This document shows, one piece after another, positions 3,545-63,406 of a DNA stretch of 64,000 bases. The notes beneath the pieces are model-generated. The model made no database searches, was not told where the DNA came from, and saw only the letters and a list, made by a program, of their open reading frames with translations. The number at the start of each line of letters is the position of its first letter. The first letter of the stretch is position 1. Both the position numbers and the translations under genes were made by a program. Where the stretch lies: positions 1 through 64,000 of IMG/VR virus record IMGVR_UViG_3300025121_000023. One strand, 5' to 3'. Origin of the DNA: a virus.

Positions 3545-4723
3545 TTAATCAGTAATTCTTAATATTTTTTTACATAGATTAACTTCTTCAGCATTTCCAG
3601 TGTTTTTTCCTGGGTTATCAGATAATTTAATAGCGTAATTCCATTCACCATTAACTAATACTTCTGAAATTTTTATAACCATATTTAAAGGTTTAATACC
3701 ATAATCATTCGTTAAGTGTGTGCCGATCCCGAAACTACTTTTTATTTTTCCAACACAATATTCTTTTATTTCCGCTGCCTGGGTTACATTTAATCCATCA
3801 CTAAATATAATTGTTTTAGACGTTGGATCAATGCCTAGTTTTTTATAATGTGCAATAACTTTATCCACAAACTCAAATGGATCCCCCGAATCATGTCTTA
3901 CACTTGTGAAAAGAGATGCAAATTTGAAATTAAATGATTTCAAAAATACATCTAATGTGAATGTGTCTGGCAACACTGTTCCTAATAATCCATCACCATA
4001 TGTATCAAGCCACATATCCATTACCATTTTATTAGCCATTCTATAACCATATAGCGTTGCAAGTGTCATGATTAACTCATGTGCCATCGAACCAACACAA
4101 TTTACATTATATTTCATTGCAAAATGAACATTAGATGTTCCAACAAATACGTGTGTATTGTGTGTAGAATATAGACTAACTATTTTATCTTGACTTGCAT
4201 ATGATTTTCTACGTCTTGTTCCGAAATCAGCAAAATATGCATTATGCTTTTTCATTATTGATAACTTATGCAAATCATTATTAATAAAATCTACATCCCA
4301 AACATTAATGTCTTGTCCAGTTTCAATAAAGTATAATTGTGATATTAATGCCATTAAAGGGACTTCAAATAATATTGTTCTATACCAATAACCTTCAATT
4401 TCAATATTTAATTTATTATTTTCATCTAATGATACGTTAACTTCATTAGAATCGTATCTATAACCATAAAGGAAATCAACATATGTTGGTGGTAAGAAGT
4501 GTCCTAATTTATTATTTAAAAAATCTGCTTCGAGTTTAGTTAAAGCAAGTGTTTCCATAAGTTTTATTTCTTCCTTTAATTTAATATCGAATCCATCAGG
4601 AAAAGAAATTTGATTTCTATCTGTGAATTTATATTTAACTTTTAATCTAGGGAATAACTTAATAACTGCATTTTGCATACTATACTTGTAAAGGTCATTA
4701 TCGAGCATCGAACAGATAATCAT
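3545..4723 (-). CDS. pncB: Nicotinate phosphoribosyltransferase
   Basis: 392 aa, close to the usual length of bacterial PncB. It makes nicotinate mononucleotide from nicotinate and PRPP with ATP, the first committed step of Preiss-Handler NAD+ salvage. Seen: LLDNDLYKYSMQ-type N-terminus (DNDLYKYSMQ), FGTRRR (167-172), GSMAHE with His215 at the position of the phospho-histidine, VRHDSGDP (275-282), FSDGL (307-311), and FGIGTHLT plus LSDNPGK near the C-terminus. These match the nicotinate enzyme rather than the nicotinamide enzyme (NAMPT/NadV). It has its own host-type promoter. pncA and a nadD fusion lie within 4.5 kb on the same strand and prs is at 37-38 kb, which supports a working pathway. 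Confidence 0.93.
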   Translation of the reverse strand: MIICSMLDNDLYKYSMQNAVIKLFPRLKVKYKFTDRNQISFPDGFDIKLKEEIKLMETLALTKLEADFLNNKLGHFLPPTYVDFLYGYRYDSNEVNVSLDENNKLNIEIEGYWYRTILFEVPLMALISQLYFIETGQDINVWDVDFINNDLHKLSIMKKHNAYFADFGTRRRKSYASQDKIVSLYSTHNTHVFVGTSNVHFAMKYNVNCVGSMAHELIMTLATLYGYRMANKMVMDMWLDTYGDGLLGTVLPDTFTLDVFLKSFNFKFASLFTSVRHDSGDPFEFVDKVIAHYKKLGIDPTSKTIIFSDGLNVTQAAEIKEYCVGKIKSSFGIGTHLTNDYGIKPLNMVIKISEVLVNGEWNYAIKLSDNPGKNTGNAEEVNLCKKILRITD

Positions 4724-4751
4724 AATATTATATTTTTAAATTAATAATATA

Positions 4752-4783
4752 CAAATATACAAATAATTAATTTATAAACAAAA
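4752..4783 (-). promoter_or_regulatory. Host-type promoter upstream of pncB
   Basis: Minus-strand TTTTG, 19 nt, TATATTTG. This matches the Bacteroidota primary sigma consensus (TTTG, N19-20, TAnnTTTG) and lies about 30 nt before the pncB start. Confidence 0.6.
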
Positions 4784-4787
4784 CACT

Positions 4788-5123
4788 TTAACTTTTAATA
4801 AAATTTATACATGGTGATAATGTTTCTTTATAAAATTTTTGAACTACAGGTACATTTCCATTCAAATGTATCATTTTAAAAAAATATCTATCTTTAGTTT
4901 CAAATACTTCTGTTCCTATTCCAAGTTCTTTAAAACCATTATAACCAAAAACTTTATTAAGATGCCCAATTAAAATAGGTGTTTCTTCAATAGAAATTAA
5001 TTCTTCTTTAACTGGAATTAATTCTTCTTTTGGTAGTTTGATTATTAAATTAATAATATCTTGTACTATAGCATCATTGTTAATATTATAATTTTTTAAT
5101 ATTTTTTGTATTTTTGTTTTCAT
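4788..5123 (-). CDS. Hypothetical protein, 111 aa
   Basis: Not recognised. A helical, Glu/Lys-rich N-terminal half (LPKEELIPVKEELISIEE) precedes a more compact C-terminal half. The frame is also open from a GTG at 5138, but that would place the start inside a 14-bp palindrome; the ATG at 5123 is preferred. Confidence 0.6.
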   Translation of the reverse strand: MKTKIQKILKNYNINNDAIVQDIINLIIKLPKEELIPVKEELISIEETPILIGHLNKVFGYNGFKELGIGTEVFETKDRYFFKMIHLNGNVPVVQKFYKETLSPCINFIKS

Positions 5124-5130
5124 AATTTTA

Positions 5131-5146
5131 TGTTCCACGTGGAACT
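5131..5146. promoter_or_regulatory. parS-like palindrome, copy 1
   Basis: TGTTCCACGTGGAACT contains the perfect 14-bp palindrome GTTCCACGTGGAAC (5132-5145). It lies between two minus-strand genes. It matches the bacterial ParB-binding parS consensus (TGTTnCACGTGnAACA). A second, perfect 16-bp copy is at 34081-34096. It could instead be an operator for a phage or host regulator. Confidence 0.55.
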
Positions 5147-5151
5147 TTTAT

Positions 5152-5607
5152 TTATTGTGGTTGTAATTCTAATAATGCTAAATCAGTAATAAGTAATTCT
5201 AAAGTTGGTAATAATTTTGCATTTAAAGATGCAAAAACTCTTTCGGAACCTCGATATATAACTAAATTATCTAATTTTAATACGGTTCTATGTAAACCAC
5301 CTACTGTTACATGCATAGTTATATTTAATCCTTGTAGTTCCAATGAAAATTGTGTCGTATCATATCCTATTTTTTCTACATCTATTACAGTTTTATATGT
5401 AAAATGTAATTTATTATTATATGCTACAATATTTGACACATTTTTATTTTTTTGATATGCTTTTACAAGATCATCAATAGTAACACCGTTATAAAATATT
5501 TTAAATTTTAAATCTTTATCATTATATAAATCACTTGTAATATTTGTATGATTACAAGAAGTAAATAACATTAAAAAAGGTAATACTAAATAAATTATTT
5601 TTTTCAT
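5152..5607 (-). CDS. Putative lipoprotein, 151 aa
   Basis: The N-terminus MKKIIYLVLPFLMLFTSC is a classic type II signal peptide with a lipobox ending LFTSC (Cys18 would be lipidated). The mature part is beta-rich in appearance with no recognised domain. A phage lipoprotein could act at the membrane, for example in superinfection exclusion, but that is inference. Confidence 0.7.
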   Translation of the reverse strand: MKKIIYLVLPFLMLFTSCNHTNITSDLYNDKDLKFKIFYNGVTIDDLVKAYQKNKNVSNIVAYNNKLHFTYKTVIDVEKIGYDTTQFSLELQGLNITMHVTVGGLHRTVLKLDNLVIYRGSERVFASLNAKLLPTLELLITDLALLELQPQ

Positions 5608-5622
5608 TTTTATAAATTTTAG

Positions 5623-5850
5623 TTATACATTATATTGCTTAATTTGTTCGTCAGTAAAAATCATTCTGAAGTCAGAACGTCTTAATCTTAAACGACCATA
5701 ATATTGCATTGCAATACCTATAATATCAGTTCTCCATCTTATTCTTAGTTCAGTATTTTGATCTTCAAGAATTGCGCACCCAATAGCATTAGTCAAAATT
5801 CTTTTTTGTTGATCTTCATCTAATTTTTTAAATTTTCTAATTATAGGCAT
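5623..5850 (-). CDS. Hypothetical protein, 75 aa
   Basis: Not recognised. Strongly basic with an Arg-rich middle (RIRWRTD..., GRLRLRRSDF), which would suit nucleic-acid binding. It has its own near-perfect host-type promoter 23 nt upstream of the start codon, suggesting early expression; the downstream lipoprotein gene may be on the same transcript. Confidence 0.65.
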   Translation of the reverse strand: MPIIRKFKKLDEDQQKRILTNAIGCAILEDQNTELRIRWRTDIIGIAMQYYGRLRLRRSDFRMIFTDEQIKQYNV

Positions 5851-5872
5851 AATTAAATGTTATTCATTAGCA

Positions 5873-5904
5873 CAAAGATACGAATAAATATATAATTTAC
5901 AAAA
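5873..5904 (-). promoter_or_regulatory. Host-type promoter (best match in the window)
   Basis: Minus strand: TTTTG, exactly 19 nt, TATCTTTG, ending about 22 nt before the ATG at 5850. Matches both elements and spacing of the Bacteroidota primary sigma promoter. Confidence 0.7.
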
Positions 5905-5907
5905 TTA

Positions 5908-6453
5908 TTACCAATAAATATTGAAAGTGCAAGATTCTCCACCCATTAAACGAGTTTCTTTTGATTTATCTAAATAAACACCATAATCAATAGTGTCTAA
6001 TGGTTTATATTTACGAAGCATATATGTAATTATTCCTCTATCAAAATCTGATGGATAAGGGTTTTTACAAATCATAATCGCTTTTCTATGTTTTTCATCA
6101 AATCTAGTTAATTCATAATGTCCTATATTACCACCTTTATGATTTAAATGATATGAAATATCTATACTTTTTAAAGCACCTTGTAAATCATTAAAACCAT
6201 TAGACCATAATGCAGTTTTTGGTATTAATTTACCTATTAAGAAAAGAGTTGTTGTACCAATAGTTTCGTACATTTCTTTAAACGCATTTAACCAATCTTG
6301 TTGACTATACCATTTATTAATTTCAGGATTTATATTATATTTATTTAATATTTGTATTCTTTTATCTTTATTAGATGATAATATATTAACTACAGATAAT
6401 ATAGCCTCACCAGTAACTTTAACATCTTTATCAAACGCAATAAATTGTGCCAT
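5908..6453 (-). CDS. Hypothetical protein, 181 aa, possibly heme-NO-binding/4VR-like fold
   Basis: Not firmly recognised. The C-terminus GGESCTFNIYW and the preceding pattern (isolated helix with ETIGTTTLFLIGKLIP, then KSIDISYHLNHKGG) recall the SC-x-[FY]-x-[IV]-x-W endings of bacterial 4-vinyl-reductase/heme-NO-binding-like domains that sense small ligands. This is a weak, by-eye similarity. No membrane segment. Confidence 0.55.
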   Translation of the reverse strand: MAQFIAFDKDVKVTGEAILSVVNILSSNKDKRIQILNKYNINPEINKWYSQQDWLNAFKEMYETIGTTTLFLIGKLIPKTALWSNGFNDLQGALKSIDISYHLNHKGGNIGHYELTRFDEKHRKAIMICKNPYPSDFDRGIITYMLRKYKPLDTIDYGVYLDKSKETRLMGGESCTFNIYW

Positions 6454-6525
6454 TAAAATTTAATTATTTTTTATCTGTTTATATATAAATTATACAAACT
6501 ACAAAAAGCTTACCATTATTGGTAA

Positions 6526-6921
6526 TTAGTTAAAACTTAACATTAATTTTATATATTCGTCAAAGAAATTTTGCACAGAACCTAATGGTTTGCCATTTTC
6601 ATTTAATAAAATTTCTACGGAAGTACCTTTACCTTTTGCGCTGAATATGATAGCCTTACAACCATCACATTCAACTAACCAAGCATAATTATTATATTCA
6701 TAACGAAACATAAAATCTTGTTTACCCCATAATTCTTTGAATTCGTCAACTTTAGAAGATACTATTTTAGACATTTTTATAATTTCTTCTTCGGATCTAC
6801 TATCATATATTTTTCTTGTATATTCGCGAAAGCAATTAAAATTATCTATTCGTTTAGTAGGTATTAAACTATTTTTATATTTAAGTCCAAATCCTAAAGG
6901 AGCAACAATTTTATTAATCAT
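6526..6921 (-). CDS. Hypothetical protein, 131 aa
   Basis: Not recognised. Residues 75-110 hold a WLVECDGCKAIIFSAKGKG segment with one CxxC pair, too little for a zinc site alone. It lies between the 181-aa protein and pncA on the same strand, with 65-nt gaps on both sides. Confidence 0.65.
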   Translation of the reverse strand: MINKIVAPLGFGLKYKNSLIPTKRIDNFNCFREYTRKIYDSRSEEEIIKMSKIVSSKVDEFKELWGKQDFMFRYEYNNYAWLVECDGCKAIIFSAKGKGTSVEILLNENGKPLGSVQNFFDEYIKLMLSFN

Positions 6922-6986
6922 AGTATAATATTATTTTTCATTATATATTTATTTTAAAAATTACAAGTAGTTAAAAAAATAGAAAA

Positions 6987-7610
6987 TTAAATTATTTTAA
7001 CACCTAATTTTTTTAGTTCATCGATTATTTTAGGTTTATCATCATTATTTATAAATCGAATCGCATCTATGATAAAAGAAGTATCAAAATATTTAACAGC
7101 GTCTATTGCTGTATCTTTACAACAGTAATCTCCAGCCAATCCTGTAATGTGAACTTCTGTTACACCTTTCATTTGTAAAAATTCTAATAAACCATTTGAT
7201 TTATCAGGTAATCCACCAAATCCAGAATATGGATGAAAATTAGTATCTTCACCTTTACGGAAAATGAAGGTATTAGGAAGATCAAGATTTAAATCCTCGT
7301 GGAAACAGGCACCAACAGTATATTGAACACAATGATCAGGCCAAAGTGTATCTGTTAATCCATTTACTTCATAACTATCAAATGGATTTTTACCTGGATG
7401 TTGTGAAGCAAATGCTGTATGTTTACGCGGGTGCCAATCCATAGTGAATATAATAATATCATATCCACCTGATGCACCTAATTTATTTATTAATGGAATA
7501 ATTTTATCACCATCTTTTACTGCTAATGCACCACCTAATTTTTTTGCATAATCTTCAGGTGTAGCAGGCATAAAATCTTTTTGACAATCTACGTTTATTA
7601 ATGCTTTCAT
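6987..7610 (-). CDS. pncA: Nicotinamidase
   Basis: 207 aa, typical of PncA. It converts nicotinamide to nicotinate and ammonia, feeding PncB. Seen: VDCQKDF with catalytic Asp8; metal site MDWHPRKH (Asp58, His60, His64) and WPDHC (His93); FRKGED with catalytic Lys119; GLAGDYC with the nucleophile Cys163. All catalytic and metal positions of the family are present, so an active enzyme is expected. Nicotinamide is what NAD+-cleaving defence enzymes release, so this gene would allow recycling of that product. Confidence 0.92.
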   Translation of the reverse strand: MKALINVDCQKDFMPATPEDYAKKLGGALAVKDGDKIIPLINKLGASGGYDIIIFTMDWHPRKHTAFASQHPGKNPFDSYEVNGLTDTLWPDHCVQYTVGACFHEDLNLDLPNTFIFRKGEDTNFHPYSGFGGLPDKSNGLLEFLQMKGVTEVHITGLAGDYCCKDTAIDAVKYFDTSFIIDAIRFINNDDKPKIIDELKKLGVKII

Positions 7611-7621
7611 ATTATTTGTTT

Positions 7622-7774
7622 TTAATTTATTTTTAAATTTATATTTTCGCGAGTATCTAAAATACTTTTAATAATTTCTAAATAAGCTTCCCAATTTTTA
7701 AATATTTGTTTACTATCGATTTCATTAGGATTACATTCATAATTTTTTAGATTTACATAAATATTTTTTATCAT
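7622..7774 (-). CDS. Small hypothetical protein, 50 aa
   Basis: An ATG-started frame (MIKNIYVNLKNYECNPNEID...) ending TAA, overlapping the 3' end of the next upstream small gene in another frame. The tight overlap and phage-like composition favour a real gene. No motif recognised. Confidence 0.4.
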   Translation of the reverse strand: MIKNIYVNLKNYECNPNEIDSKQIFKNWEAYLEIIKSILDTRENINLKIN

Positions 7775-7856
7775 TTGATTTTCTACCACATTTACAAATG
7801 TAATCTGGATTTTTCTGCCTTTTTTTATTATTTTTTTTACATAATGTCTTTGCCAT
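7737..7856 (-). CDS. Tiny Cys-containing basic protein, 39 aa
   Basis: MAKTLCKKNNKKRQKNPDY then CKCGRKS...KKYLCK. Four cysteines, including a CxC-G knuckle, and many Lys suggest a small zinc-ribbon-like nucleic-acid-binding protein. It ends TGA and overlaps the 50-aa frame by 38 nt; it sits 11 nt downstream of the 66-aa membrane protein gene. Confidence 0.5.
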   Translation of the reverse strand: MAKTLCKKNNKKRQKNPDYICKCGRKSNDKKYLCKSKKL

Positions 7857-7867
7857 AATTATTTAAT

Positions 7868-8068
7868 TTATTCTTCAAAACCAGCCATAAATAATAAATA
7901 GAATCCATATCCTACATAAGTTGATAATAATAATAATAATATAATTAAAAATAATGGGTTTAATAATATGAACCAAAATATTGTTAATATTTTACCTAAT
8001 TTATCTTTTAATAAAGTATTAGGTAAAAAGAATACCCAATTTAATATAAATTTGCTTAAATTTTCCAT
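7868..8068 (-). CDS. Small membrane protein, 66 aa
   Basis: A single long hydrophobic stretch (about residues 27-60), possibly two tight passes. It starts 2 nt after the stop of the MazG-NadD fusion gene, so the two are translationally linked. Function unknown. Confidence 0.6.
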   Translation of the reverse strand: MENLSKFILNWVFFLPNTLLKDKLGKILTIFWFILLNPLFLIILLLLLSTYVGYGFYLLFMAGFEE

Positions 8069-8070
8069 AT

Positions 8071-9135
8071 TTATTTTACCTTAATCAAATCATTAGCAAA
8101 ATATGCACTTACTCTATCTTCTTTTCCATACGGTTTGAAATATAGTTGCCCATCATCTTTTTTGTATATTTTATGTTCACCATCTTTTTGAACATCTACA
8201 ATATCACCTTCTTTTAATTCTACTTCAAATTTATCATAACATTTTACATATTTATCTGTATAAAGTTTATTTTTATAAATATAACTTAATACTTTAGGAT
8301 GTAACATAGTATCTATTGCTTTAAATCTACATAAATTATCATTTTTTGTTAAATGAAATCTTATATCAGTAGATGATATTTCATCAATACTATTATCATT
8401 TTTTAAAAAAATGTGTGGTGGTTTTAAATACCAAACAACATTTTCATTTCTTTCAATACCTTTTCTTGGAACAACAACAAATCTAACCATTCTTTCAAGT
8501 TCTTGAAAATTAACCCACTTATCAAAACTGTTAGCGTTGTCCAATCCAATTATCATACTGAAGTTATATTTTCCTTCATATTCGGATTCTTCTTTAAGTC
8601 TTTTAAATAAATTAAAAGTTTCACCTGCTAACTTATTTTTTATTTCAAAATCACATACTTTAATTCGACCATCAACTTCTGCTGCTAATTTACACATTTC
8701 TAATCTATCATCAGGTGATTCCATATGTTTTCCTAACATATGAGAGTATGCGGGCATTAGCCACACTTCATCAAACATACCAGATGTATTTAATACAAAT
8801 TTAGCAAGTTCAATATGTGAATTATGAATAGGGTTAAAAGCGCCACCTAGGATAGCTACTTTTACTTTTCTTCCTAATGTTTTATATTGTAATGTACGTT
8901 TATTTATTTTGGTAATAGTGTTTTCAATTAATTCTTCGGCATCCCATTCACTTTCATTACATAATTGTAATAAAGATGATAGTAAATCACCAGCTTCTTC
9001 TTTAAGGTTTTTTACATCTTGCCATTTAATTAATTCTAAAAATTCATTTTGAATATCTAAAAGACGTTCTGATAATGGAGTATATCCGAAGTTTTCTTTA
9101 AATACATTATTTATTTTATTTTGTATTTCTTTCAT
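8071..9135 (-). CDS. nadD: MazG-like / nicotinate-nucleotide adenylyltransferase fusion
   Basis: 354 aa. Residues 1-85 resemble a MazG-type nucleotide pyrophosphohydrolase helix bundle (ERLLDIQNEFLELI then KEEAGDLLSSLLQL). Residues 90-290 are a NadD/NMNAT nucleotidyltransferase: GGAFNPIHNSH (97-107) is the (H/N)xGH ATP site and ISSTDIR is the conserved ISST-x-[IV]-R motif. NadD joins nicotinate mononucleotide with ATP to give nicotinate adenine dinucleotide. The last 60 residues (EGDIVDVQKDGEHKIYK...) look like a small beta-barrel add-on. Standalone NadD is about 190-215 aa, so this is a three-part fusion. Bifunctional NMN/NaMN specificity cannot be decided by eye. Confidence 0.88.
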   Translation of the reverse strand: MKEIQNKINNVFKENFGYTPLSERLLDIQNEFLELIKWQDVKNLKEEAGDLLSSLLQLCNESEWDAEELIENTITKINKRTLQYKTLGRKVKVAILGGAFNPIHNSHIELAKFVLNTSGMFDEVWLMPAYSHMLGKHMESPDDRLEMCKLAAEVDGRIKVCDFEIKNKLAGETFNLFKRLKEESEYEGKYNFSMIIGLDNANSFDKWVNFQELERMVRFVVVPRKGIERNENVVWYLKPPHIFLKNDNSIDEISSTDIRFHLTKNDNLCRFKAIDTMLHPKVLSYIYKNKLYTDKYVKCYDKFEVELKEGDIVDVQKDGEHKIYKKDDGQLYFKPYGKEDRVSAYFANDLIKVK

Positions 9136-10643: not shown

Positions 10644-10967
10644 TTAATCAAAGAAATCTTTTCTACGATCTATTACTTCTAATCTATCAACATACTTTTT
10701 AAGAATATCACCATGACAAAGTTCATTAGGGGTTGTATTAGTTTTACAAACACATCCAAGACGTTTATATTTTAATTCAGACAAAGAATTTAATAAATCT
10801 TCATTATTTAGCAAATATTTTTCAAATAATACTATTGCTTGTTTTCTATTATCCACTTTAAATTGTGCAAGTGTATTTTCTTTATGTGAATATGGATTAG
10901 ACCATTTTGAAGGACGGGTTATATCAATATCATATGAATCAGTATATTTATTTACAACTTCACACAT
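10644..10967 (-). CDS. DUF4326 domain protein, 107 aa
   Basis: The protein carries the DUF4326 hallmarks: IDITRPSKWSNPYS near residue 14-28 (family form [IV]-x-R-P-S-x-[WL]-[GS]-N-P[FY]) and CVCKTNTTPNELCHGDIL at 72-90 (family form C-x-C-K-x-x-x-CHGD). This domain is common in phages; its biochemistry is not established. It ends 1 nt before the 122-aa gene region begins. Confidence 0.75.
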   Translation of the reverse strand: MCEVVNKYTDSYDIDITRPSKWSNPYSHKENTLAQFKVDNRKQAIVLFEKYLLNNEDLLNSLSELKYKRLGCVCKTNTTPNELCHGDILKKYVDRLEVIDRRKDFFD

Positions 10968-30457: not shown

Positions 30458-31561
30458 TTAATTATTTTTATTTAAAAAATCTTTCCAACCTTTCCAACCC
30501 CTATCTTTTTTATTATAATAATTTTCTGGATGATTTGGTATAATTTCTGGTATTTTATTATTTTTGGCATTCAACATCCATTCTTTTTTGCTTTTGATAT
30601 TAATTTTTTCTTTAATATATTTTTTAGATTCTTCATATGATATATAATTTTCAGCTATTTTATTATCTCGAACTTTATTAGTTCCTAAAAAATCACCCAT
30701 ACTAATCCACCCATTATTTTTATATGTTGAAGATGGTGTTAAAGGTATATTTAAATTTTCTATAACTTTTTTATTATATTTTCTCCATTCCGATCTACTT
30801 TTAATATTTAATGGTTTAATAAGTTTTTTAGCTTCTTCATATGAAACAAAATTTTTATTTTTATGTGCTAATCTGTTAGTTCCTAAAAAATCACCCCAAC
30901 TAACCCATCCTCTATTTTTATTAGCATAAAATCTATCTGGTCTATTTGGAATAGTTTCTGGTATTTCATTATTTTTTAGTTTCATTTTCCATTCTTCAAT
31001 AGTATTAGCTATTATATAATTTTTAATATAATTCTTAGCTTCATTGTATGATATATATTTTTCTACTATTTTGTTATCTTGAATTTTATTGGTCCCTAAA
31101 AAATCCCCCCAACTAATCCAACCATTATTTTTAAATGTTATATTAGGGTTAAATGGTAAATTATATTTATTTTTAATATTTTTATGATTTTTTTCCCAAT
31201 CGTTTCCACTTTTAATATTTAAACGATGTGCTATTTTTTTTGCATCTTCATAAGAAATTGTATATAATAATCCGTGACCTCCATCACCACCACCAGTATG
31301 ATTAGTTAAATTCGGTAATTTTTTAATCCAATATTTTTCTTTTTCTATCCAATCATTATTATTACATTTTTCTAATATTTTAATTTTTATTTGATTACCT
31401 TTTTTCAATTCTTTTCGTATCCAATTATGTTTATATGTTTTACAATTTCTAATAGTATCACTTAAATGTTCATATAATCTCTTTTCTAAATTATTAGTTT
31501 TTCCGACATATCGTATATCATTATCCATATTAGTATACAACCCATAAATATACATTGTCAT
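30458..31561 (-). CDS. GIY-YIG endonuclease with four integrase-type repeats
   Basis: 367 aa. Residues 1-85 are a GIY-YIG domain: YIYGLYTN (GLY for GIY), IRYVGKTNNLEKRLYEHL (YVG for YIG, followed by the catalytic Arg) and a Glu near 75. The rest has four repeats of about 65 residues, each ending in a GW-[IVK]-[SG]-[WMG]-[GK]-DFLGTN type motif after an SYEEAKKYIK-like helix. Such repeats occur in large-virus and phage proteins and may bind DNA. Probably a homing endonuclease. Confidence 0.78.
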   Translation of the reverse strand: MTMYIYGLYTNMDNDIRYVGKTNNLEKRLYEHLSDTIRNCKTYKHNWIRKELKKGNQIKIKILEKCNNNDWIEKEKYWIKKLPNLTNHTGGGDGGHGLLYTISYEDAKKIAHRLNIKSGNDWEKNHKNIKNKYNLPFNPNITFKNNGWISWGDFLGTNKIQDNKIVEKYISYNEAKNYIKNYIIANTIEEWKMKLKNNEIPETIPNRPDRFYANKNRGWVSWGDFLGTNRLAHKNKNFVSYEEAKKLIKPLNIKSRSEWRKYNKKVIENLNIPLTPSSTYKNNGWISMGDFLGTNKVRDNKIAENYISYEESKKYIKEKINIKSKKEWMLNAKNNKIPEIIPNHPENYYNKKDRGWKGWKDFLNKNN

Positions 31562-37210: not shown

Positions 37211-38155
37211 TTACATTGCACCAAAAATATCTCTACTAATAGATTGCCCACTTGCAATTCTTTTAATTGCTTGTGCAAGTAATTCATCAGTAGATAATAC
37301 TATTATTTTTTTACTTAGTTCTGATTGAATAGGAATAGTATCAGTAACTATCAATTCATCTAATTTAGAATTATTAATATTATCATAAGCATTTCCTGAT
37401 AATATAGGATGTGTTATAAGAGCCCTAACTGATTTAGCACCACTATTCATAACTAAATCAGCAGCTTTACAAATTGTTCCAGCAGAATCAATGATATCAT
37501 CAATAAAGAAAACATCTTTGCCTTTTACATCACCGATAAGTTTCATTTTAGATACATCTCCATTAGTACCTCTTTCTTTATGAACAAGTACTAAATCAGT
37601 ATCAAATGCATTTGAATAACGACTTGCTCTTTTTGAACCTCCTACATCTGGTGATGCAAAAACCATATTATCAATAGAAAAATTTTCTCTAAGATAAGGA
37701 ATAAATATAAAACTTGAACTTAAATGATCTACTGGAATATCAAAAAATCCTTGAATTTGATCAACATGTAAATCAATTGTTATAACTCTATCAGCACCAG
37801 AAGCAGTTATTAAATTGGTCATTAATTTAGCTGATACCGGAACACGTGGTTCGTCTTTTCTATCTTGTCTAGCGTATCCAAAATAAGGAATAACGGCACA
37901 AATTTTTCTTGCAGATGCTCTTTTAGCAGCATCTAACATTAAAAATAATTCAATCAGATTATCACTACTTGGATTAGTAGATTGAATTATAAATATTTTT
38001 TTCTCTCTTACTGTTTCACCAAAACGAACTTTAATTTCACCATCACTAAATTTTTTAATACTGATATTATTTAATGTTTTTTTATCAGAATATTTTTCTA
38101 CTACTTTTTTAGCTAGTTTTTTAGATGCTGTTCCAGAAAAAATTTTTATACTCAT
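37211..38155 (-). CDS. prs: Ribose-phosphate pyrophosphokinase (PRPP synthase)
   Basis: 314 aa, the usual class I length. Motifs: FSDGEIKV, YFGYARQDRKDEPRVPVSAK (ATP site), TIDLHVDQIQGFF, SPDVGGSKRA, VHKERG, and the PRPP loop FIDDIIDSAGTI. It makes PRPP from ribose 5-phosphate and ATP. PRPP is the co-substrate of PncB, so it should support the phage NAD+ salvage route as well as nucleotide synthesis. It is a standard Prs by eye; whether it could act like the ADP-ribose pyrophosphorylating enzyme of NARP1 cannot be excluded. Confidence 0.93.
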   Translation of the reverse strand: MSIKIFSGTASKKLAKKVVEKYSDKKTLNNISIKKFSDGEIKVRFGETVREKKIFIIQSTNPSSDNLIELFLMLDAAKRASARKICAVIPYFGYARQDRKDEPRVPVSAKLMTNLITASGADRVITIDLHVDQIQGFFDIPVDHLSSSFIFIPYLRENFSIDNMVFASPDVGGSKRASRYSNAFDTDLVLVHKERGTNGDVSKMKLIGDVKGKDVFFIDDIIDSAGTICKAADLVMNSGAKSVRALITHPILSGNAYDNINNSKLDELIVTDTIPIQSELSKKIIVLSTDELLAQAIKRIASGQSISRDIFGAM

Positions 38156-43206: not shown

Positions 43207-43743
43207 TTATTCAAATTTAATATATTCAGAAGGAATATAATCAGTTAACCAAACTTTATTTTCTGAAATGTAAAACTTATAACCGTCTTGATACATTTTT
43301 TCAGTATCAATAATTAATATAATAGGTTCTTCATTTTTAGAATGTCTTAAACCAACATTACGTGCTGTAGATTTATTATCAGACAAATGAATATATTTTC
43401 TACTCATCTTCTTTAATCCTTTAAGATAAATGTCTTTAATATTTTCTTTTTTTGTACCATGAAATAAAATTTTTGGAGGAATAGATTCCGGAAAATCTAT
43501 ATTAACAAATTCTAAAGAATGTCCTTGATTCGCTCTTATTTTTGAACCATCTTCGTTATAAACAAATCTTTGTTTATCATTCGTTAAAACTATTTCATTT
43601 AATGTTAATTTATCTATTTTTAATTTAATTAGTAATGTTTTTACATCAACCCAACCCTGGGCATCCATTTCTAAATTTTCGTTATTGTGTCGTAATAAGT
43701 AAGATATCTTTCTTCCTATATTTAATAAATTTTGTTCTTTCAT
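43207..43743 (-). CDS. kptA: RNA 2'-phosphotransferase (Tpt1/KptA family)
   Basis: 178 aa, the usual KptA size. Motifs: GRKISYLLRH (first catalytic Arg), GWVDVKTLL, IRANQGHS (second Arg, His), LFHGT, and RKYIHLSDN with VWLTDYIPSEYI. It removes an internal 2'-phosphate from RNA using NAD+, giving ADP-ribose 1'',2''-cyclic phosphate and nicotinamide. The nicotinamide could be recycled by the phage PncA. Next to a nucleotidyltransferase, so an RNA (tRNA) repair role is plausible. Confidence 0.9.
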   Translation of the reverse strand: MKEQNLLNIGRKISYLLRHNNENLEMDAQGWVDVKTLLIKLKIDKLTLNEIVLTNDKQRFVYNEDGSKIRANQGHSLEFVNIDFPESIPPKILFHGTKKENIKDIYLKGLKKMSRKYIHLSDNKSTARNVGLRHSKNEEPIILIIDTEKMYQDGYKFYISENKVWLTDYIPSEYIKFE

Positions 43744-52511: not shown

Positions 52512-53270
52512 ATGGTAGTTAGTGAAACAGTTGAAATAAATATTGAACGTAGAAATATAACTTTTTATAGAAAATTAGGCTATGAGTTAAAAGTTGGAAC
52601 AAAATTAGTAATTCCAGTTAATCAATTAATGATAGGCGCTAAAAATAAAATAAAAATATTTTGTGATATATGTAATATACATTTTTATGTAGTATATAAA
52701 GATTATTTAAATTCTAATAAAAACCATAATTTTGATGTGTGTAATAAATGTAAATTTGAAAAAATTAAAATAACTAATAATAAAAAATATGGGTGTGATT
52801 CACCATTACAAAATAATAAAATATTACAAAAATTTATTGAAACTAATAATAAAAAATATGGTGGAAATTCTTCTAGTAATAGCCAAAAAGTATTAGATAA
52901 ACAAAGAAAAACTAGAATTAAAAATAAAATAGAAATACCATCTGATATACCTATTGGAGAATTTAAAAAATATAGAAACAGAGTAGATACATTTACTAAT
53001 AAAAATAAAAAAGAATTATTTAATAGTTGGAATGGTTATGATTTTTATGATGGAGAATATATTAAAGATAATCTTAAATTACATTTTAATGGTAAAAATT
53101 ATCCTACAATAGAACATAAAACATCTGTATTTTATGGATTTATGAATAAAATATCTGAAGAAGAAATATCCAAATTAGAAAATCTGGCTATTACTAAAAA
53201 AAGTATAAATAGTTCAAGAGGAAATAAAAATTTTGATTTATTCAGAGAAAGTTTTAATAAAATTATTTAA
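52512..53270 (+). CDS. Putative homing-endonuclease-like protein, 252 aa
   Basis: A zinc site (CDICN at about 54, CNKC at about 77), two copies of a [KN]KYG-x-x-S-[SP] motif (KKYGCDSPLQNN and KKYGGNSSSNSQ) typical of modular homing endonucleases, and a C-terminal block with YDGEYIKDNLKL, YPTIEHKTSVFYGF and ITKKSINSSRGNK like an HNH-type catalytic domain. Start ATG 52512 is used; a TTG at 52482 also opens the frame. It is an isolated plus-strand gene whose 3' end overlaps the convergent ligase gene by 33 nt, as expected for an inserted selfish gene. Confidence 0.68.
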   Translation: MVVSETVEINIERRNITFYRKLGYELKVGTKLVIPVNQLMIGAKNKIKIFCDICNIHFYVVYKDYLNSNKNHNFDVCNKCKFEKIKITNNKKYGCDSPLQNNKILQKFIETNNKKYGGNSSSNSQKVLDKQRKTRIKNKIEIPSDIPIGEFKKYRNRVDTFTNKNKKELFNSWNGYDFYDGEYIKDNLKLHFNGKNYPTIEHKTSVFYGFMNKISEEEISKLENLAITKKSINSSRGNKNFDLFRESFNKII

Positions 53271-54464
53271 GTATTCTTGATATTCTAACTCATTTGGAGA
53301 TTTTGTAATTACCCGAATTAATTGTGGAATAATTTCTCCCTTCTTCGCTATTTCTACTGTACAACCAGGATATACTTTATTTTCTATAATCCAACCTAAA
53401 TTATGTAAACTTGCTCTTTTAACTATTGTGCCATCTAATTCAGTTGGATGAAATAAAGCTATAGGGGTAAGTTCACCATCTTTACCTAAATTCCATATAA
53501 TATCATTTATAACTGTTTCTACTTTATTAGGTACAAATTTAACTGCACAAGCCCAATGAGGATGATGATTATTTTCACCTAATTCTTTCCAATATTTAGG
53601 TGGAAAATTTAATACTATACCATCTAAAGCATATTCACAATTAGCTCTATATTCTTTAAATTTAGGATAAATTTCATTAAAAAAATGATTAAAATTGGTA
53701 GTTTCTAATGAAAATATATCACCAAATCCAATACTTTTAAGAGTATCTAATTGATTTTCTGGTCTAATAATTGTATCACCATCAAATATATCCATTCTAA
53801 AAGCAACAAAGCTCATATCATTAATAATTTCGGTAGGAACACCATCTGGTGTATTTAAAATTCCAGCTAACCAATTACGAGGATTATCAACTTTATTTGG
53901 GTTTGAATATTTTTCTTCCCATATAGCAGTAGGTATAATTACTTCACCTCTAATAACTACTTTTTTAAATACTTTGTATTTATCAGGTAATGTATTAGGA
54001 ACTAATAATTTGATTTTTTCTGTTCGGTCTAAACCGCCACCTTCTTCTTCATTACCACGTGTTAAGGCAATATATAAGCATCCATAGTGGTAATTAATTT
54101 CCATAGAGTTTCCATCAAGTTTAGGTGTGCAAGTTATTATAGGATTTACTACTTTATTAAAAAAGTTTTTAATATCAATAGGATATAATTCTTCATCAAC
54201 AGGTTGAGTAACCTGATATTTTTTTAATGATTGCATTGGAAAGGTATGATGAAAACGTAATTCACGTTCACCTATTTTTAATTCTTCTACTAAATTATAT
54301 TTTGCAAGAATTTCAAGAGATGGACAATCTATAATATTAGGTATTAAAGAACCCATTTCTCGAAGTTCGTTTTCTAATGTATCATAAACAGAATCAGATA
54401 CTTCTGTTTTACCATTGTAATACAGATATTTCCATTTTAATAGAATTTTTTCCTTTTCGTACAT
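53238..54464 (-). CDS. ligA: NAD-dependent DNA ligase, minimal form
   Basis: 408 aa against about 670 for bacterial LigA. Present: the NMN-binding Ia part (YYNG...VSDSVYD, 16-27), adenylation motif TPKLDGNS (Lys115), TRGNEEEGG, VIRGEV, and an OB-fold start (GELTPIALFHPTELDG, RASLHNL, GCTVEIAKKGEIIP). It ends there: the zinc finger, HhH and BRCT domains are absent. It seals nicks in DNA and consumes NAD+. A host-type promoter lies upstream. Confidence 0.9.
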   Translation of the reverse strand: MYEKEKILLKWKYLYYNGKTEVSDSVYDTLENELREMGSLIPNIIDCPSLEILAKYNLVEELKIGERELRFHHTFPMQSLKKYQVTQPVDEELYPIDIKNFFNKVVNPIITCTPKLDGNSMEINYHYGCLYIALTRGNEEEGGGLDRTEKIKLLVPNTLPDKYKVFKKVVIRGEVIIPTAIWEEKYSNPNKVDNPRNWLAGILNTPDGVPTEIINDMSFVAFRMDIFDGDTIIRPENQLDTLKSIGFGDIFSLETTNFNHFFNEIYPKFKEYRANCEYALDGIVLNFPPKYWKELGENNHHPHWACAVKFVPNKVETVINDIIWNLGKDGELTPIALFHPTELDGTIVKRASLHNLGWIIENKVYPGCTVEIAKKGEIIPQLIRVITKSPNELEYQEYLNNFIKTFSE

Positions 54465-56513: not shown

Positions 56514-57853
56514 GACAAATAATGACATCTGATACATTTTTTTCCTAATTCAACGACAAAACTATTGTTTCATCTCCAAAGGCGTTAATTTGGGTGAACT
56601 CGACCCTATTTATTTTATCATCTTTAATTGATTTCAATCTTATACCTTCATTTTTAATGTTTATTGCTGCGTTTAAATCCCTGTTTAGTACAGAATTGCA
56701 TTTTGAACAAGTCCATTCTCTATCTTTCATAGTTAATTTATCATTTTTAACTCCACAACAACTACATTTTTTTGATGATGGAAAAAATCTATCAATTTGT
56801 ATTACTTCTCTATCATACCATATAGCTTTGTATTCTAAAATTGTTTTAAATTTATTTAATGATAATTCTTGAATTGATTTAGCTAAATGATGATTTTTTA
56901 ACATTCCACTTACATTTAAGTCTTCAATAACTATAGTTTGGTTTTCTCTAAGTAATTGATTAACTACACTATGTAAATAGTTTTCTTTTATATTTGTTAT
57001 TTTTTCATGATATTTTGATAATTTTATCCTTATTTTTTGTTTATTTTTTGAACCTTTTTGTTTTCGTGAAAGCAACTGATTTAACCTTTTAAGTTTTTTT
57101 TCATTATTTCTAGTTGATTTTATATTTTTAAATACTTGGTTATCAGATGATACGATAAAATCTTTTATACCTAAATCAATACCTATAATATTATTTTTAG
57201 GTTTTTGTAATATTTTATTTGGCTTATCAATTAAAATGCTAAAATAATATTTATTTGATTTAGTTTTAGTTAATGTACCAGATTTAATTAAATATTTATT
57301 TTTATTTAAATAAATTTCATCTTGTCTTGAACATTTAAAATGAATATCTTTTAATGGTCTAATTATATTTATTCGATTTCCATTGATTTTACCGATGGCA
57401 TCAACAGGAAATCTACAAGATTGTTTGTTGTGTTTTGATTTAAATTTTGGAAATCCATTACCATTACTAAAAAATGATTTATAAGCAATATCTAAATTAA
57501 CTAAACTCTGTTGTAAAACCTTTGAATGGCTATCTTTTAACCAATTAAATTCTTCGATTGCTTTTAAATTAGTTAAATATTTTCCTGTTTCTACAAAAGA
57601 AACTGATTTTTTATGATTATTATATTGATCAATTTTATGAGCTAAACAATTGTTATAAACAAATCTGGATGATCCAATTAATTTATTCACATAAATTGTT
57701 TGTTCATTATTTAAATATAATCTTGTTTTTATTGCTTTTAACATTTTTAAATTATTGTTAGTTTTTTACTTACATTATATATTAAATAAAAAATATGATA
57801 TTTTTCCATTTTAAAAAAGTGATTATAATTGACAATATTTTACATTATTTGTC
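56514..57853 (-). mobile_element. Solitary TnpB element (IS200/IS605 type, IS1341-like)
   Basis: A tnpB gene with no tnpA nearby. An 11-bp inverted pair GACAAATAATG (56514-56524) and CATTATTTGTC (57843-57853) flanks it on both sides, about 30 nt beyond the 3' end and 100 nt beyond the 5' end. These may mark the element ends or be chance in AT-rich DNA. The guide (omega) RNA would be expected at the 3' end of tnpB, that is near 56514-56650. Confidence 0.5.
56545..57744 (-). CDS. tnpB: TnpB RNA-guided nuclease (IS605 OrfB)
   Basis: 399 aa, full length. RuvC-type catalytic residues: Asp in GIDLGIKD (about 188), Glu in VIEDLNVSG (about 271), Asp in NRDLNAAINI (about 355), plus the CSCCG...CSKC zinc ribbon. 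The N-terminal helix-turn region LKAIKTRLYLNNEQ is also typical. An active nuclease is therefore likely. In phages such genes act as selfish elements or in inter-phage competition. Confidence 0.92.
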   Translation of the reverse strand: MLKAIKTRLYLNNEQTIYVNKLIGSSRFVYNNCLAHKIDQYNNHKKSVSFVETGKYLTNLKAIEEFNWLKDSHSKVLQQSLVNLDIAYKSFFSNGNGFPKFKSKHNKQSCRFPVDAIGKINGNRINIIRPLKDIHFKCSRQDEIYLNKNKYLIKSGTLTKTKSNKYYFSILIDKPNKILQKPKNNIIGIDLGIKDFIVSSDNQVFKNIKSTRNNEKKLKRLNQLLSRKQKGSKNKQKIRIKLSKYHEKITNIKENYLHSVVNQLLRENQTIVIEDLNVSGMLKNHHLAKSIQELSLNKFKTILEYKAIWYDREVIQIDRFFPSSKKCSCCGVKNDKLTMKDREWTCSKCNSVLNRDLNAAINIKNEGIRLKSIKDDKINRVEFTQINAFGDETIVLSLN

Positions 57854-62290: not shown

Positions 62291-63406
62291 ATGAGTAGAG
62301 TATTAGTAATTGTTGATGTTCAAAAAGAATTTGATGATTTTATCCAACGTGATTTAGTAGATGAATTATATGATTATGCAGAAAAATTTGAAAAAGTATA
62401 TCAGATATGGGATTCTAATAAAAATCAAATAAAACCAACTTATGAATTTCCTAACCAGGTTAAATCAGTTAAAAAGAAATTCGGTAGAAACCATTTTAAT
62501 AATAAAGTCCAAAAATTTACACAAGATATTGAAGATGTATCTAAAGAAGGTACTACTTTTAAATTAACAAAAGGAAATGGATATATTATTAGAGTAGATA
62601 ACAATCATCAATGGTTTTATGTTAATCCAGAAATTACCGATTTAATTGAAGAATTAAAAGATGATGAAGTTGTTTTAGTTGGTGGTGCTGATGGTGAATG
62701 TCTTGAAGATGTTAAAGTAGCATTTGAAGCTTTTGGATTAAATTATAGAATTAATAAAAAATATGTTTATAGTGCCAAAACAGATAAAAATGATACGATT
62801 AAAGATAATATTAGTGAAGCTAAAAAACAAAAATTTGAATATGATGAAATTTGTTATAAAGTTCAAGATCAAGAAGATGAAGATTTTATTAAATCATATT
62901 TAACAACACAAGGGTATGATTATACAGGACTTAATTCAATACATACAAAACCATATTATTTATTTGTTGATATTAAAAAAGGTAATTTAACACATGATAC
63001 TATACATAGTCTTGATAGGCTTGGTGGTTTAATTAATTATACAAAAGAATATGAATATAGTATATATCCAGTAGTTTTTGATAGATCTAGTTTTAGTACT
63101 TTTAGAGGTATTATAGAATATGGAGAAATAATACCAGATTATAGACCAAGAAGAAAACTTAATGAATCTATAAAAGATATTTTAAAAGGAAAATCAAAAG
63201 AAGATATTGAAAATGCTATGGAAGATTTATTAACTAAAATAACTGATGAAGCAATAGAATTATTTCCGAAAAAATTTACTGAATGGACAGATACATATAA
63301 ATATTTTGAAAAATATAGAGATATAATAAAAAAATACATATTACAAAGTTATACTATTAGTAATGTTATTTATTATATTGTTAATGGATACGCAGAAAAA
63401 AAATAA
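62291..63406 (+). CDS. Composite protein: isochorismatase-like domain plus PDYRPRR and NESIK modules, 371 aa
   Basis: Residues 1-170 resemble a degenerate cysteine hydrolase of the isochorismatase/nicotinamidase fold: VLVIVDVQKEFDD (Asp8) and VVLVGGADGECLEDVKVAFEAFG (Cys in the nucleophile position). No clear catalytic Lys or metal His is seen, so activity is doubtful. Residues about 195-290 end FRGIIEYGEIIPDYRPRRK, the shared tail motif. Then LNESIKDILKGKSKEDIENAMEDL repeats the segment found at the N-terminus of the LRR and repeat genes, here in the interior. The whole looks assembled from modules used elsewhere in this genome. Confidence 0.65.
   Translation: MSRVLVIVDVQKEFDDFIQRDLVDELYDYAEKFEKVYQIWDSNKNQIKPTYEFPNQVKSVKKKFGRNHFNNKVQKFTQDIEDVSKEGTTFKLTKGNGYIIRVDNNHQWFYVNPEITDLIEELKDDEVVLVGGADGECLEDVKVAFEAFGLNYRINKKYVYSAKTDKNDTIKDNISEAKKQKFEYDEICYKVQDQEDEDFIKSYLTTQGYDYTGLNSIHTKPYYLFVDIKKGNLTHDTIHSLDRLGGLINYTKEYEYSIYPVVFDRSSFSTFRGIIEYGEIIPDYRPRRKLNESIKDILKGKSKEDIENAMEDLLTKITDEAIELFPKKFTEWTDTYKYFEKYRDIIKKYILQSYTISNVIYYIVNGYAEKK

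Follow-up and report, generated by a model that had tools for sequence, protein, structure and literature searches.

Li et al. in 2024 are said to have described complete salvage or Preiss-Handler gene sets for nicotinamide adenine dinucleotide (NAD+) in 174 of 668 gut jumbo phages, together with many NAD+-consuming enzymes. In the Preiss-Handler pathway nicotinamide is deamidated to nicotinate by PncA, nicotinate is joined to phosphoribosyl pyrophosphate (PRPP) by PncB to give nicotinate mononucleotide (NaMN), NaMN is converted to nicotinate adenine dinucleotide (NaAD) by NadD, and NaAD to NAD+ by NadE. Here we analyse a stretch of 64,000 nucleotides (the window), positions 1 to 64,000 of the IMG/VR virus record IMGVR_UViG_3300025121_000023, which encodes PncB, PncA, a MazG-NadD fusion and the PRPP-making enzyme Prs. 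The cluster probably makes up the greater part of a Preiss-Handler module for NAD+ salvage, and it sits on what is most likely one piece of the genome of a huge phage, a relative of LR756501 (735 kb). The phages of Li et al. are reportedly huge too and combine NAD+ synthesis with NAD+ consumers, and the window differs from them in having no NadE. An earlier note on this DNA presented the set as a newly found third route by which phages restore NAD+; as complete Preiss-Handler sets had reportedly been found in jumbo phages already, that claim does not hold and the route is known in kind. The set is well conserved and ordinary in kind, and what is new is the fusion enzyme and the breadth of the linkage.

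Among the other described systems, NARP1 (Adps and Namat) also restores NAD+ in phage infection, but from ADP-ribose and nicotinamide (PMC12774641, PMC13232231). Neither Adps nor Namat was recognised in the record, nor was a second NAMPT- or Namat-like open-reading frame (ORF), no model aimed at Adps being among those run. Salvage of the NARP2 or KVP40 type, by NadV with NadM or NadR, starts from nicotinamide, as it would here (PMC9503650, PMC7824862); NARP2 employs a NAMPT without deamidation, whereas the window has PncA, PncB and NadD and no NAMPT. A separate NAMPT or NadV was absent from all 44 records searched (the window record and 43 related ones), in which a phage-NAMPT profile matched PncB ORFs only, and the window PncB scored 60 bits with this profile vs. 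407 with the nicotinate phosphoribosyltransferase model. The surveys of Iyer, Aravind and colleagues list NadV, NadM and NadR only, and PncA, PncB and NadE go unmentioned (PMC9503650, PMC7824862). A full-text search for ‘Preiss-Handler’ in phages, which did not extend to Li et al. 2024, gave no paper whose title or abstract describes it. Among cultured jumbo phages, Agrobacterium phage Atu_ph07 has an annotated PncB (PMC6102473), 31% identical to that of the window, but unlike the window its PncA-like and NadD-like matches are weak. At positions 100831-101658 its genome (MF403008) encodes a full-length glutamine-dependent NadE (PRK13981, 557 bits; cut-off 479), which the paper on this phage does not mention (PMC6102473).

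Identity and conservation of the gene set

The pncB, pncA, MazG-NadD and prs ORFs all lie on the minus strand, start with ATG and contain zero internal stops (Table 1). PncB (392 residues) passes both family models, with 407 bits against TIGR01514 (cut-off 269.6) and 420 bits against PRK05321 (cut-off 379), and its top match among solved structures is the nicotinate phosphoribosyltransferase 2im5 (E 3e-101). The pair H215-E216 is unchanged across four phage homologues and sits where this family has its phosphorylated catalytic histidine. In PncA (207 residues), which matches the nicotinamidase 2wt9 at E 4e-36, the catalytic residues D8, K119 and C163 and the metal ligands D58, H60 and H93 are all present and invariant among phage homologues, whilst Prs (314 residues) reaches 339 bits against TIGR01251 (cut-off 113), and the NCBIfam models assign it to the class I PRPP synthetases. 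The four genes named in the earlier note thus lie where it had placed them, each with matching models, solved relatives and intact signature residues; the PncB family and the class I Prs, well over its cut-off, were both confirmed by profiling, and a PRPP supply of the phage's own is tenable, as Prs is present and could provide PRPP. The proposal that this is the deamidating branch, unlike NARP1 and NARP2, is likewise upheld by the enzyme identities and by the lack of a separate NAMPT.

The four genes recur together in G001, a 94-kb IMG/VR record syntenic with the window, in the same order but inverted, with 64% (pncB), 50% (pncA), 60% (MazG-NadD) and 70% (prs) identity, and the nucleotide differences between the two peak at third codon positions. 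Because the order of all four is retained under third-position-biased change, chance and contamination are excluded as the origin of the set. LR756501, the largest manually curated complete genome of Al-Shayeb et al. 2020 (PMC7162821), encodes PncA, PncB, MazG-NadD, NadE and Prs, with its prs 18 kb from its pncB. It resembles the window in PncB (45% identity), PncA (46%), MazG-NadD (56%) and Prs (52%) and in a homologous polymerase and virion block, but unlike the window record it carries NadE, PnuC, NadR and a TonB-dependent receptor and holds MazG-NadD in its virion block.

IMG/VR, searched by alignment, yielded 143 PncB-encoding stretches, and 80 loci, some from near-duplicate records, were kept for neighbourhood counts. 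At least one partner gene (pncA, nadE or nadD) lay within ~10 kb of pncB in 67 of these 80 loci, and the partner genes were without exception on the pncB strand (126 of 126); PncA occurred in 55 loci, NadE in 47, both in 35 and all four genes in 16. Across whole records, an isochorismatase/PncA-family gene was present in 31 of 50 and a NadD-superfamily nucleotidyltransferase (PF01467) also in 31 of 50, the latter an upper bound because some, such as the LR756500 match, are CoaD. A scan for close relatives with the PncB sequence alone gave no match, and of the five small ORFs that separate pncB from pncA in the window, none matched in eight related loci. As the set co-occurs in LR756501 and in relatives, with all partners sharing the pncB strand, the sequences indicate that a phage-borne Preiss-Handler module exists and that the window has most of one.

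Some records matching in the searches were set aside. The pncB and pncA genes of Acinetobacter phage MD-2021a (INPHARED CAKLQH020000008.1, locus L008) are surrounded by hut, rib and glm genes and probably belong to a bacterial contig; this record makes pncB and pncA look commoner in phages than they are. The NadD and PncA matches in Listeria and Enterococcus ‘phages’ were to unannotated contigs suspected of contamination and were not used. Macro-domain genes (ADP-ribose processing) were observed near the NAD cluster in five loci (L116:13329-13808, L182:10875-11351, L035:14746-15276, L052:6825-7316 and L076:12744-13325).

Table 1 Features of the window and of related loci (window positions, or locus:positions).
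Feature	Position	Strand	Evidence
PncB, nicotinate phosphoribosyltransferase (nicotinate + PRPP to NaMN)	3545..4723	-	TIGR01514, PRK05321, PDB 2im5, His215
PncA, nicotinamidase (nicotinamide to nicotinate)	6987..7610	-	PRK11609 below cut-off, PDB 2wt9, active-site residues
MazG-NadD fusion	8071..9135	-	PF03819, PF01467, TIGR00482, predicted structure
DUF4326 protein, possible associate of the module	10644..10967	-	PF14216 E 6e-16; 56% identical in G001
Prs, ribose-phosphate diphosphokinase (PRPP supply)	37211..38155	-	TIGR01251; G001 synteny
KptA/Tpt1-type RNA 2'-phosphotransferase, likely NAD+ consumer	43207..43743	-	PF01885 E 5e-45; 57% identical in G001
Short NAD+-dependent DNA ligase (adenylation + OB domains), likely NAD+ consumer	53238..54464	-	PF01653 E 4e-28, PF03120 E 3e-21
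Phage TonB-dependent receptor beside PnuC and/or NadR, same strand	L116:11174-13132		
Phage TonB-dependent receptor beside PnuC and/or NadR, same strand	L182:7436-9565		
Phage TonB-dependent receptor beside PnuC and/or NadR, same strand	L005:15037-17193		
Phage TonB-dependent receptor beside PnuC and/or NadR, same strand	L207:9995-13631		
Phage TonB-dependent receptor beside PnuC and/or NadR, same strand	L222:14980-18574		
Phage TonB-dependent receptor beside PnuC and/or NadR, same strand	L223:14986-23938		

The MazG-NadD fusion

The third gene of the cluster had been described in the earlier note as a nadD fusion with an unnamed partner; NadD is confirmed and the partner is MazG. The 354-residue ORF consists of a MazG-like domain (residues 1-88; PF03819, E 9e-8), a NadD domain (residues 90-293) and a C-terminal extension (about 295-354). 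The NadD domain matches PF01467 and, over residues 92-292, scores 119 bits against TIGR00482 (cut-off 112), with the motifs GGAFNPIHNSH, GLDNANSFDKW and SSTDIR. AlphaFold predicts two confident domains and a low-confidence C-terminal tail, and the NadD part of the model aligns to solved NadD enzymes in Foldseek with TM-scores of 0.82-0.89 by target length. The acidic ExxE...ExxD metal-binding motif of MazG is present, with E31, E46, E47 and D50 invariant in 12 fusions, whilst the window has Glu at position 34, where two of the 12 fusions and LR756501 have His.

Besides LR756501, ~14 distinct IMG/VR records encode the fusion; these MazG counts are from a MazG-only profile, because an iterated MazG profile also gathered NadD. 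In loci L189-L191, which are probably near-identical as their match statistics are the same, MazG and NadD are separate genes overlapping by 4 bases. The gene is also found inside a virion gene block rather than the NAD cluster, at 30866 in LR756501, 49686 in G047 and 35096 in G048, in each case adjoining a homologue of the ORF at 101603-102376 of the window record. Among the matches listed from cellular genomes were two to NadD alone and no fusion, and the literature searched, to which the full text of Li et al. 2024 did not belong, held no description of the architecture. The fusion is an unusual feature and, as far as the papers searched show, a new one in the already reported class of NAD+-making giant phages; it offers a distinctive marker and a readily testable enzymatic question. 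Our guess is that the MazG domain acts in NTP/dNTP pyrophosphohydrolysis beside the pyrophosphate-releasing NadD step.

The NadE step and the extent of the record

The IMG/VR record that holds the window is 112,560 bases long and lacks terminal repeats. Of its 145 predicted ORFs, 48 match the complete LR756501 genome and 41 match G001; its B-family DNA polymerase is 56% identical to the LR756501 counterpart, its block at 92-107 kb is collinear with 14-36 kb of LR756501, and a virion structural protein is also encoded. Because of the 48 shared ORFs and the lack of end repeats, the record most likely represents one part of a far larger huge-phage genome, and so a gene absent here may sit elsewhere in that genome. 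The G+C content of 23% and A-rich leaders with no clear Shine-Dalgarno sequence suggest, weakly, a Bacteroidota-like host.

Several observations weigh against reading the cluster as a working NAD+ pathway. NadE had no match anywhere in the 112,560 bases, so that extending the search beyond the window, as the earlier note had advised, yielded none, and it is also absent from the syntenic 94-kb G001. The window PncA scores 127 bits against PRK11609, below the equivalog cut-off of 174, so that the family assignment proposed earlier stands by its complete catalytic and metal-binding residues and not by this model; the G001 PncA, 50% identical, reaches 194 bits. Prs lies 28 kb away from the pncB-pncA-nadD cluster and could serve nucleotide synthesis, and its place in the NAD module is thus presumptive. 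The NadD domain may act on NaMN or on NMN. An Rfam scan found no NAD+ riboswitch or other RNA, and a promoter scan (79 sites vs. 98.6 in shuffles; terminators 3 vs. 1.5) was uninformative. As NadE was not found, we call the window most of a module and not a complete pathway.

That NadE is absent from the window agrees with the earlier note; its suggestion that the host may supply the enzyme is not established, since relatives commonly carry NadE and the record covers only part of its genome. NadE is present in 36 of 47 virus records chosen for PncB and in 37 of the 50 records searched overall; LR756500, LR756511, MT835470 and Atu_ph07 have it as well. In LR756501 it scores 214 bits against TIGR00552 and lies with pncB, ~400 kb from the MazG-NadD gene. 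The window MazG-NadD shares 64% and 66% identity with its counterparts in loci L116 and L182, and in both loci the cluster also contains NadE and PncA. The phage may complete the route itself or borrow the host NadE, and we give roughly even chances to the first of these, in which NadE would be encoded on the missing part of the genome and the pathway would be complete and host-independent: LR756501 and the two loci closest by MazG-NadD carry NadE and the record most likely is a fragment, but G001, the closest syntenic record, has none and the lineage may have lost it.

A class II aminoacyl-tRNA-synthetase-like protein at 69985-70908 of the record (L001:6985-7908; PF00152) was considered as a NadE substitute and rejected, as LR756501 has a 62% identical homologue plus NadE; the G047 homologue is 68% identical, and the product is possibly an asparagine synthetase or an AsnRS-derived enzyme. 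A further 371-residue protein (62291-63406) is isochorismatase-like by eye in its N-terminal part (VDVQKEF, GGADGEC), has no Pfam or NCBIfam match and is 46% identical over 170 residues to a stretch of LR756501 ~6 kb from its prs. The B-family polymerase ORF (504 residues, 84573-86087 of the record, L002:5573-7087) covers the exonuclease and the first part of the polymerase domain only; its match is equally long in LR756501 and G047 (513 aligned residues), and the polymerase may be split between two genes. An ORF at 56545-57744, 57% identical in G001, resembles an IS200/IS605-type TnpB by eye. Multi-copy ORF families, zinc-ribbon-like or endonuclease-like, occur at 65578-66681, 71207-73243, 74154-75800, 82986-84581 and 104588-106129 of the record; they are common to G001 and other relatives and look by eye like homing or VSR-type mobile endonucleases. 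The DUF4326 family (Table 1) has been placed by others within NAD+/ADP-ribose networks (PMC7824862).

Possible uses of the module

Gene identity, the intact residues, conservation as a set and the NadE of relatives were observed directly; we infer activity, expression, an effect on NAD+ and an advantage gained. During infection PncA would deamidate nicotinamide to nicotinate, PncB would couple this to PRPP, made partly by the phage Prs, to form NaMN, the NadD domain of MazG-NadD would adenylate NaMN to NaAD, and a NadE encoded either by the host or on phage DNA outside the sequenced record would amidate NaAD to NAD+. The net result would be an NAD+ pool refilled from nicotinamide that is freed by defence NADases or by the phage's own NAD+ users, and resistance to NADases and the feeding of these users fit the data equally.

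The module may mainly feed NAD+ consumers and redox reactions in a long infection, the candidates being a LigA-type ligase, RNA repair by KptA and nucleotide metabolism, a reading to which we give somewhat less than even chances. The record carries its own NAD+-dependent ligase, matched by TIGR00575 only up to position 381 of 652, and its own KptA, and a 2026 review holds that jumbo phages likely carry NAD+ genes to supply resources for making DNA (PMC13282480). However, only 14 of the 44 related records encode the ligase and LR756501 lacks it, so that it is not a general reason for the module.

Counter-defence, put forward in the earlier note, is plausible: tentatively, the module may instead be kept mainly for rebuilding NAD+ after depletion by Thoeris-, Sir2- or TIR-type NADases, which would make it functionally akin to NARP1 and NARP2. 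NADases release nicotinamide, the substrate of PncA; NAD+ reconstitution as a counter-defence is described for NARP1 (PMC12774641, PMC13232231), and macro-domain genes lie near the cluster in some relatives. Yet the cluster showed no recognisable gene with a link to defence (zero matches for six proteins in PADLOC, which models defence and not counter-defence), the deamidating route is longer than NARP1 and requires a host or unseen NadE, and ordinary metabolic supply fits the module as well. That the genes are bacterial contamination or recent host passengers is extremely improbable: some INPHARED matches are bacterial contigs mislabelled as phage, but the record shows synteny with G001, homology to the curated 735-kb genome, and a B-family polymerase and virion protein alongside the genes, and the top plasmid-borne PncB is 45% identical vs. 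64% for G001.

Import of an NAD+ precursor is a related prospect in the relatives. Six NadR-bearing loci of the data set also encode a TonB-dependent receptor; loci with the receptor beside PnuC and/or NadR are listed in Table 1. A receptor-only search of IMG/VR gave 26 loci, 21 of them non-seed, and in 19 of these 21, NadR and/or PnuC lay within 10 kb on the same strand, mostly directly downstream. The receptor, PnuC and NadR occur together in LR745206, LR756502 and Lak phages, and the pairing of the receptor with PnuC and/or NadR is also seen in huge phages of 634-735 kb; none of the three is in the window record. The LR745206 receptor was named SusC, with carbohydrate uptake proposed (PMC9723777); its gene neighbourhood suggests the import of an NAD+ precursor rather than carbohydrate uptake. 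The wider picture, of huge phages with a modular, often complete NAD+ supply marked by a phage-specific MazG-NadD, and of relatives whose receptor, PnuC and NadR import the precursor, is one we hold as a rather unlikely but possible outcome. If true, infection would refit the host envelope so that it takes up an NAD+ precursor, and the cell would resist NAD+-depleting defence.

NAD+ depletion is a major bacterial defence, and surveys of its reversal by phages have dealt mainly with routes in which nicotinamide is used directly. Because the deamidating route is widespread in huge phages and often accompanied by a phage NadE, catalogues of counter-defence built on NARP1, NARP2, NadV, NadM and NadR would overlook a large class. 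Atu_ph07 offers a tractable cultured system for phage NAD+ synthesis.

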